Source: Halosimplex rubrum
GTDB lineage: Archaea > Halobacteriota > Halobacteria > Halobacteriales > Haloarculaceae
Length of the DNA stretch: 64,000 nt
Direction: 5' to 3'
Assembly: GCF_013415885.1 (NCBI RefSeq)
Contig: NZ_CP058910.1
Location: 3,968,001 to 4,032,000 of the forward strand
The translations under genes were made by a program, and so were the position numbers. This document shows, one piece after another, positions 22,489 through 25,419 of the stretch. Under the pieces are notes generated by a model. The model saw only the letters and a program-made list of their open reading frames with translations, was not told the DNA's origin and ran no database searches. How positions within the stretch are numbered: position 1 is the first letter of the stretch; the number at the start of each line of letters is the position of its first letter.

Positions 22489-22545
22489 CGGAGACCCGGC
22501 GTCGAATCACTGATTCGATTTTGGACTGCGGTGGCGCGCGCTGTC

Positions 22546-22575
22546 GAGCGTGCCCGCCTTTTGGCGGGCCGCTCG
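22546..22575. terminator. Strong GC-rich stem-loop after the CoA-transferase gene
   Basis: GAGCG/CGCTC and GCCCGCC/GGCGGGC pair across a TTTT loop with only a bulged base on each side, about 60 bases after the stop codon. It may terminate mct or be the first hairpin of the folded region that follows. Confidence 0.5.
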
Positions 22576-22687
22576 AAATAGTCGTGCGAGGGATGAGCAC
22601 CGCACGCCGCAGGCGCGCGGAGCGCAATCGGCTGGGGAGGCTCGTGGCTGTCGGCGGTGCTGTGCGGGCTGTGCTGGCCTGGCGGAT

Positions 22688-22805
22688 TGAAAGGGCGAGG
22701 CCCGCTCGCGTTCAGTTTAGTCGTCTGAGCGGGCACTATCCGCGCGGGCGGTGCGGAGAGCGCGGATATCCCGCTCAGCGACCGCGAGCGGGTCGAGGGC
22801 TTTCA
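22688..22805. other. Highly structured non-coding element of unknown nature
   Basis: Four nested perfect helices are visible: TGAAAG/CTTTCA (22688-22693 with 22800-22805), CCCGCTCGCG/CGCGAGCGGG (22701-22710 with 22783-22792), CTGAGCGGG/CCCGCTCAG (22725-22733 with 22770-22778) and TATCCGCGC/GCGCGGATA (22737-22745 with 22760-22768), closing a 14-base loop. A further 8-bp pairing, AGCACCGC/GCGGTGCT, lies just upstream (22596-22603 with 22654-22661). No plausible protein is encoded between 22489 and 22891. It could be a structured RNA, a folded repeat, or a miniature transposon relic. Confidence 0.6.
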
Positions 22806-22891
22806 TCGCCCGTGGTCGAGTACGATTTCAGTTCCACCTAGCGATCAGACCGAGAACTCGCATCGACCATCACGAGAGTCACCGACAGAAA

Positions 22892-24722: not shown

Positions 24723-25419
24723 ATCGTGTTCAGATAAGCTGATTCCATGCGAAGCTGAACGATCTGAGCCAATCGTCGGCTGTTTCTGCTTCGGCATTGC
24801 TAAAACAGTTTGAGAAACATACAGTTCGTCGTTTTACTTCTCTAAAGACACGTTCAACAGCGTTCCGATTTCCATGTTTTTCGTATCTGAAATCGAAGCC
24901 ATGTCGGTGACACGCAGCTTCTAACGATTTGGAGCCATCGATGAGAAACACGGCGTCGTCAACATCGTGTTTCTCGCTGAGTTCGGCGAGAAATGAATGG
25001 GCGAGAACCTTCGTTGTAGTTGGTCTTAGCTTTGTATGCAGCAGTTTGTTCGTTTCCGGATCGACAGCAGCGTACAGCCAATACTGCTCGTCGTTGAGTC
25101 GGATCACGGTCTCGTCAACCGCGACGTGATCCGGTGAGTGTCCACCTTCGGGCTGTAAATCAGCCTTGTGAACCCAATTATGAATAGTTGAGCGAGCACG
25201 TTTGACACCGAATACCTCAAGAATAGAAACAGTATTCGAAAGTGAGAGTCCAGCCAGATGCAACTGAATACTCAGCTTCATCAACAGTCGTGGTGTCGCT
25301 TCTCGCTCCACAAAATCTAAGTCGAATTGGTCGAGATTACCGCCGAGGCTAGCGTTTTCGGGCATGAATCACTCAGAAAACGCTACGCCTCACCCTTCAA
25401 ACCTTATCTGAACACCGCG
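24723..25419. mobile_element. IS6-family insertion sequence
   Basis: Terminal inverted repeats GTGTTCAGATAAG (from 24726) and its complement (ending 25415) flank a single transposase gene. A 9-bp direct repeat CTACTACTC sits at 24714-24722 and 25420-25428, consistent with a target duplication (IS6 elements usually make 8 bp), which would place the outer ends at 24723 and 25419. The insertion lies between tyrS and the KaiC-like gene, about 50 bases before the latter's start. The transposase frame is intact, so this is a recent arrival. Confidence 0.85.
24730..25365 (-). CDS. IS6-family transposase
   Basis: A 211-residue DDE transposase. An N-terminal helix-turn-helix (SLSNTVSILEVFGVKRARST) is followed by the catalytic core: Asp84 in HVAVDETVIRL, Asp143 in VFLIDGSKSLEA and a glutamate in NRNAVERVFREVKRRT (Glu171 or Glu176). 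This arrangement is that of haloarchaeal IS6 elements, which transpose by cointegrate formation. The stop codon lies within the left terminal repeat. Codon usage is less GC-rich than in neighbouring genes, as expected of a mobile gene. Confidence 0.92.
   Translation of the reverse strand: MPENASLGGNLDQFDLDFVEREATPRLLMKLSIQLHLAGLSLSNTVSILEVFGVKRARSTIHNWVHKADLQPEGGHSPDHVAVDETVIRLNDEQYWLYAAVDPETNKLLHTKLRPTTTKVLAHSFLAELSEKHDVDDAVFLIDGSKSLEAACHRHGFDFRYEKHGNRNAVERVFREVKRRTVCFSNCFSNAEAETADDWLRSFSFAWNQLI

Follow-up and report, generated by a model that had tools for sequence, protein, structure and literature searches.

A dispersed, structured, non-coding repeat of haloarchaea examined from one copy in Halosimplex rubrum

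Between a CoA-transferase family III gene on the + strand and a methyltransferase gene on the - strand, which converge on a gap at positions 22489 to 22891 of the window (the 64,000-nucleotide stretch of contig NZ_CP058910.1 analyzed here), the chromosome of Halosimplex rubrum carries a large nested hairpin structure, and the question is what such a structure does in a gap that contains no gene. The original prediction described four nested perfect helices of 6, 10, 9, and 9 bp, accompanied by neighboring stem-loops, in a gene-free gap of about 400 bases between convergent genes; the helices are all exact, the neighboring stem-loop at 22535 to 22588 is real, and the gap is as described. A structure is indeed present at 22546 to 22805, where it had been placed, but this extent is too small, as homologous copies start and stop at about 22527 and 22809, which gives a unit of ~283 bp. 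As detailed below, the element is multicopy, intergenic, and gene-less, is found in many genera and on plasmids, and is present at one locus in a lineage-specific manner. It probably belongs to a family of non-coding mobile repeats that are dispersed in haloarchaea and non-autonomous, with a folded strand that would be recognized by a putative factor.

Anatomy of the element in the window

The element consists of a stem-loop module (A) and a structured core (B), and its features are listed in Table 1. The core region (22680 to 22815) folds with -81.4 kcal/mol, compared with -60.2 +/- 4.0 kcal/mol for dinucleotide shuffles (z -5.3, 0/200), and the fold is also strong with DNA parameters. For the 401-nt gap as such, the z values are -4.6 (+ strand) and -6.0 (- strand). 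The stem of module A is swapped as a whole between copies with its pairing kept (TCGAGCG/CGCTCGA, TCGCGCG/CGCGCGA, and TCGCGAG/CTCGCGA); the consensus fold of the entire module is weaker. In the core, the GA and GG of the CGAGGG segment on the 3' side face the GA and GG of the 5' side. Downstream of the core there is probably a decayed extra right arm, which ends 57 nt past the CTTTCA of the core, the modal arm spacing of the family; it is too decayed for the automatic arm count, which is 0 at this copy.

Table 1. Features of the Halosimplex rubrum element (window coordinates)
Feature	Position	Strand	Basis
Whole element, module A plus structured core B	22527..22809	+	Where homologous copies start and end in this genome and in seven congeners
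Module A stem-loop	22535..22588	+	Folding z -4.1 (for 22527..22600); alignments
Conserved segment GTGCGAGGGATGAGC	22584..22598	+	Almost invariant in 47 aligned copies
Conserved segment CGGCTGGGGAGG	22629..22640	+	GGGGAGG almost invariant in 47 aligned copies
Type I core (B) with conserved loops and nested helices	22680..22809	+	Covariance model R1; 24/29 pairs doubly changed across genera
Conserved left end motif TGGCGGATTGAAAGGGCGA	22680..22698	+	Family motif TGGYGGAYTGAAAGGGCGA, 31 in own genome
Helix 1, TGAAAG, pairs with 22800..22805	22688..22693	+	Exact
Purine internal loop, 5' side: GG, C (pairs with G22797), GA	22694..22698	+	Almost invariant in types I and II
Helix 2, CCCGCTCGCG, pairs with 22783..22792	22701..22710	+	Exact
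Helix 3, CTGAGCGGG, pairs with 22770..22778	22725..22733	+	Exact
Helix 4, TATCCGCGC, pairs with 22760..22768	22737..22745	+	Exact
3' side: CGAGGG and helix 1 3' arm CTTTCA; conserved right end CGAGGGCTTTC	22794..22805	+	
Probable decayed extra right arm CCTAGCGATCAGACCGAGAACTCGCA	22837..22862	+	Read by eye

At the homologous site, H. pelagicum has a copy that has lost the apical helices. In the homologous gap of genomes G007 and G001 (loci L250 and L251), another sequence stands in place of the element, with a short reading frame whose product resembles a small membrane protein. Elsewhere in the window, a 211-aa frame on the - strand (24730 to 25365) resembles IS6/IS240-type DDE transposases (Pfam DDE_Tnp_IS240, E value of 1.5e-5, slightly below the curated cut-off).

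Conservation of the fold

A covariance model of the type I core, the variety found in the window, was built from 50 copies. Among 77 type I cores from many genera, in an alignment that was fitted to the model and therefore favors the structure, 98.3% of the pair cells are paired, 24 of the 29 pairs have changed on both sides (0/500 shuffles as high), and 257 cells show double changes, compared with 51 in shuffles; sliding the partner by 1 to 3 columns lowers the pairing to 31 to 48%. An alignment of 50 genus copies based on sequence only has compensatory changes in 11 of the 29 pairs. A second type of core (type II), which has an unrelated interior, shows covariation of its own: it is 97.1% paired, and its sequence-only alignment has compensatory changes in 20 of 31 pairs (0/500 shuffles as high).

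The purine loop between the outer helix and the variable stem, which consists of GG/GG, a C-G pair, and tandem GA/GA, is almost invariant. Perfecting the palindrome would destroy these letters, which argues for selection on a folded single strand and not on an inverted repeat as such. Read on the GAAAGGG...GGGCTTTC strand, G-T pairs exceed A-C mismatches by 36:18 in type I and by 36:3 in type II, although these counts, like those of covariation, are not independent, because the copies are related. A control set of 30 haloarchaeal SRP RNAs is biased in the same direction (91:22), and type II resembles an RNA in full. Wobbles are fewer in type I (1.5% versus 3.7%), and its ratio of double to single-sided G-T changes is 325:30, compared with 273:77 in SRP RNA, so that part of its covariation may stem from copying of one arm onto the other in replication. 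Taken together, the fold is kept by compensatory change, with the purine mismatch loops almost invariant.

Distribution, modular forms, and genomic context

A search of the 4.48-Mb chromosome that carries the window retrieved 62 whole or partial matches to the core, ~27 of them covering most of it, and 41 matches to the left half, which amounts to ~30 copies. With at most one mismatch, the end motif occurs 31 times in this genome, and the backward pattern occurs 0 times in all genomes. The element is carried by all eight Halosimplex genomes searched, including those of H. pelagicum and H. aquaticum, with 57 whole or partial matches in G001. Of 244 Halobacteria genomes, 77 match the core model; they belong to 38 of the 75 genera, among them Halorussus, Halonotius, Halovenus, Natronomonas, Haladaptatus, Haloparvum, Halomarina, and Halomicrococcus; end-motif counts range from 0 in many genomes to 52 in G240, 53 in G169, and 118 in G146. 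There are plasmid copies in Halorussus, Halovenus, Haloarcula, and others, and no copies in the phage records searched. The similarity to intergenic sequences of other haloarchaea, suggested in the original prediction, is thus correct, and its suggestion of a folded repeat family is borne out by the copy number, the spread across genomes, the compensatory changes, and the one clean occupied/empty site described below.

Copies of the family are modular. Type II cores (consensus ...CGACGCAAGCACCGCAG...GAGGAGCGCAGCGAG...) have their interior within the same end structure and are found in Halonotius, Halobacteria archaeon HArc-gm2, and others. Inverted pairs of cores, 28 to 280 nt apart, are frequent in the combinations I/I, I/II, and II/II, and many of these pairs enclose additional hairpin modules; the usual form in Halosimplex is module A with one core. 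Extra right arms lie downstream of 67 of 208 copies, compared with 6 in the reverse-complement control. Their spacing peaks sharply at 57 nt (36 cases), with up to five arms in a row. These arms repeat the sequence of the right arm of their own core and can therefore still pair with the left arm. A CRISPR-like reading of the 57-nt arrays was rejected, as the stretches between the repeats are identical within an array.

For genomic context, 220 distinct copies were examined with genes called by a codon model, and none of them falls within a gene call. With the core strand as reference, the gaps are of the types ++ (71 copies), +- (50), -+ (49), and -- (38). The convergent setting, correctly described for the window copy, is only mildly enriched family-wide (50 convergent, 49 divergent, and 109 tandem gaps): against a background of gaps of 150 nt or more that hold no element, convergent gaps are overrepresented and divergent gaps underrepresented (chi-square p 0.009), and ++ exceeds -- (p 0.002). 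A terminator or 3' UTR element of convergent genes was rejected, since copies occupy all gap types. Only 1% of the neighboring starts but 12% of the neighboring stops fall within 50 nt of a copy, the pattern that selection against promoter damage would leave. In the sequences upstream of the copies, neither conservation nor a shared promoter was seen.

At four loci (L155, L175, L188, and L217), different genera have a copy near the same conserved gene pair, one member of which resembles L-isoaspartyl methyltransferase genes; this hints that the site is either preferred or very old.

Mobility and competing explanations

Nine loci of the Halosimplex rubrum genome were compared with those of six congeners, matched through their coding flanks. 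At L011, the element lies between divergent genes in this genome alone; the six congeners have the same genes, ~150 to 190 nt between probes, and no element. At L008, the site is occupied in this genome, G002, and G004 and empty in G001 and G006; the occupied orthologues differ in the inner helix (GGG/CCC versus GAC/GTC) in a compensatory manner, which gene conversion from another copy would also explain. At other shared loci, the copies are about as unlike each other as unrelated copies. Exact insertion boundaries are unreadable, because the species compared are too diverged in their non-coding DNA. The family is dispersed, partly old, and partly lineage specific.

We favor, as probable, the reading of the element as a non-autonomous mobile repeat. 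A putative trans-acting factor would recognize the GAAAGGGCGAG/CGAGGGCTTTC end structure of the folded + strand, which could be a transcript or single-stranded DNA, and would then copy or move the element. Copies that do not fold could not spread, which would leave the stems covarying and the loops fixed; selection against gene and promoter damage would clear copies from genes and from start-proximal DNA, and the 57-nt arm arrays might arise by replication slippage or one-ended copying at the right end. Against this reading count the single documented clean species-specific insertion (L011), the loci occupied in several species, which indicate old age and vertical inheritance for part of the family, and the failure to find a mobilizing enzyme, with no recurrent gene among 941 neighboring proteins, no reverse transcriptase in the genus, and no Y1 transposase in G001.

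A structured RNA, the other suggestion of the original prediction, or a structured untranslated region that serves the host and exists in many copies is an unlikely alternative. Transcription of the + strand, by read-through or from a promoter of its own, would yield a fold that binds a protein or regulates the neighboring genes. Much of the fold agrees with this: the covariation, the excess of G-T over A-C, which in type II is very strong and comparable to that of SRP RNA, the conserved non-canonical purine loops, and the excess of ++ over -- gaps. However, this orientation bias is mild and copies stand in every orientation to genes, a common promoter is not seen, the neighboring genes have no function in common, 167 of 244 genomes have no core-model match at the threshold used, and congeners differ in the loci they occupy.

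Quite unlikely is a reading in which a transcript would be the active part of a new structure-guided archaeal mobile system. In that case, an AAAG/CTTT end with GG/GG and GA/GA loops would cap two RNA domains (types I and II) that are unrelated and covary independently of each other, which would be used alone or as inverted pairs with accessory hairpin modules, and the mover would be a protein new to transposition.

There is only a slim chance that the element is a matter of DNA architecture, similar to BIME/REP of Escherichia coli, in which a cruciform or hairpin would bind a topoisomerase or nucleoid protein and would have spread by recombination. The intergenic location, the enrichment in convergent gaps with depletion in divergent ones, and the strong DNA hairpin are consistent with this possibility, but both the conservation of mismatches and the bias toward G-T on one strand favor a single folded strand over a symmetric duplex site, and the element is missing from many haloarchaea. 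Still less probable is that quasi-palindrome correction, in which one arm is copied onto the other in replication, produced the compensatory changes as an artefact, with no structural selection, because, although the ratio of double to single-sided G-T changes in type I fits such copying and hairpin-type deletions do happen (the H. pelagicum copy at the window site has lost its apical helices), arm copying would repair the GG/GG and GA/GA mismatches, which are almost invariant in all genera, and it accounts for neither the excess of G-T over A-C nor the dispersal.

The search for a mover of the favored mobile repeat spoke against several candidates. All-against-all comparison of the 941 neighboring proteins yielded only unrelated housekeeping families, and an autonomous partner beside the copies was rejected. 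The reverse transcriptase domain RVT_1 was found in none of the eight Halosimplex genomes, with positive controls matched, which argues against a retroelement (SINE-like, group II intron, or retron). Y1 domains number 0 to 2 per genome, with none in G001, which is 99% complete. A resident reverse transcriptase was rejected as the mobilizer, and a resident Y1 transposase is an improbable one, although Y1 may have mobilized the element in the past. The guess of a miniature inverted-repeat transposable element (MITE) in the original prediction was not supported: in 82 copies, no flanking target duplication was detected (a flank match of 4.95 nt within copies and 4.90 nt between copies, range up to 5.12), with the element ends uncertain.

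Several other repeats were observed next to element copies. In two g5 genomes (G122 and G066; loci L115 and L116), an inverted pair of cores lies inside a near-identical, MITE-like unit with GTGTTCAGATAA...TTATCTGAACAC-like ends, so that ordinary transposition of the unit may spread cores in these genomes, where many near-equal-scoring copies suggest recent activity. The sequence TCAGTACAGGTG was considered as an element end leading to an insertion sequence and was rejected, as only 9 of 81 copies have it on their left and it also adjoins other sequences. The 12-mer TCAGTACAGGTR occurs 9, 8, and 4 times in the three Halosimplex genomes G000, G004, and G005 (loci L319 to L339, e.g., G000:484486, 1029273, and 3323205; 0 in the backward control), at the left end of some element copies but also beside other sequences, and three loci in the own genome share a further repeat, TCAGTACAGGTGATAGGCTGATCAGTAGCATTCGCGCGAGCG. 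A hairpin-rich insertion of ~70 nt, CCTGGCGTCCTCGTGAGCGAAGCGAACGAGGGCTCAGGAGAGCTTGCTCTCC, is found just left of the core at L008 and L013 in Halosimplex and at L093 in G172, in the identical position before TGG in two genera; it is probably another small mobile hairpin nested in the element.

Among known systems, the REP/BIME repeats of enterobacteria, with their RAYT proteins, are dispersed intergenic imperfect hairpins with conserved mismatches, used singly or as inverted pairs. The element shares all these traits but is ~4 to 10 times larger, has several nested helices, and has no RAYT-type Y1 neighbor that we could find. HEARO and omega RNAs, which are in Rfam, are multi-helix structured RNAs of mobile repeats, often without an adjacent gene, and the element is likewise a multi-helix stretch in mobile repeats; however, it has no recurrent TnpB/IscB-type nuclease family beside its copies. 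The Rfam 15 covariance models gave no match at gathering thresholds or at an E value of 1, and a known RNA family was rejected. Like MITEs, the element is short, non-coding, and dispersed, with inverted ends, but its ends are unmatched to a transposon and its internal fold is conserved.

In the open-access literature, we found nothing nearer than the account of SMRs and PATEs in Haloquadratum walsbyi (PMC3119063). SMR-A and SMR-B are non-coding repeats of 80 to 110 bp with prominent inverted ends, which are present in many copies, create no target duplication, and have no established mechanism of mobilization; SMR-A prefers to insert into the near-terminal palindromes of PATE/IS605 (PMC3119063). 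The element resembles them in being short, with inverted core ends, no gene inside, and no duplication above the cross-copy background. In contrast to SMR-A, its copies lie in ordinary intergenic gaps with unrelated housekeeping neighbors and no recurrent transposase, and it has additional modules, two alternative interiors, cores in inverted pairs, and arrays of arms at 57 nt, none of which appear in the descriptions of SMRs. PATEs are transposase-free, have subterminal palindromes, and are common in haloarchaea, free of target duplications and of inverted terminal repeats, and derived from IS605 elements (PMC3119063). Single-strand hairpin recognition would be analogous to that of PATEs and IS200/IS605, but the inverted ends of the core are conserved in all copies, which argues against a PATE, and G001 has its 57 matches without any Y1 transposase. 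As far as found in the open-access literature and Rfam, on which this statement rests, the repeat family is seemingly undescribed. It is probably a mobile repeat of the transposase-free kind that would work like SMRs, PATEs, or REP elements, with a modular structure that is unusually similar to that of an RNA, and it may be a relative of the SMRs.

About half of the sampled haloarchaeal genera thus carry a copy-rich structured element for which there is no Rfam family. The covariance model enables annotation of these loci and their look-up in existing RNA-seq data. With its common end structure, two interchangeable interiors, inverted pairing, and arm arrays, the family offers a direct way to test what moves the transposase-free repeats of haloarchaea, since its folded strand can serve as bait for the putative mover.
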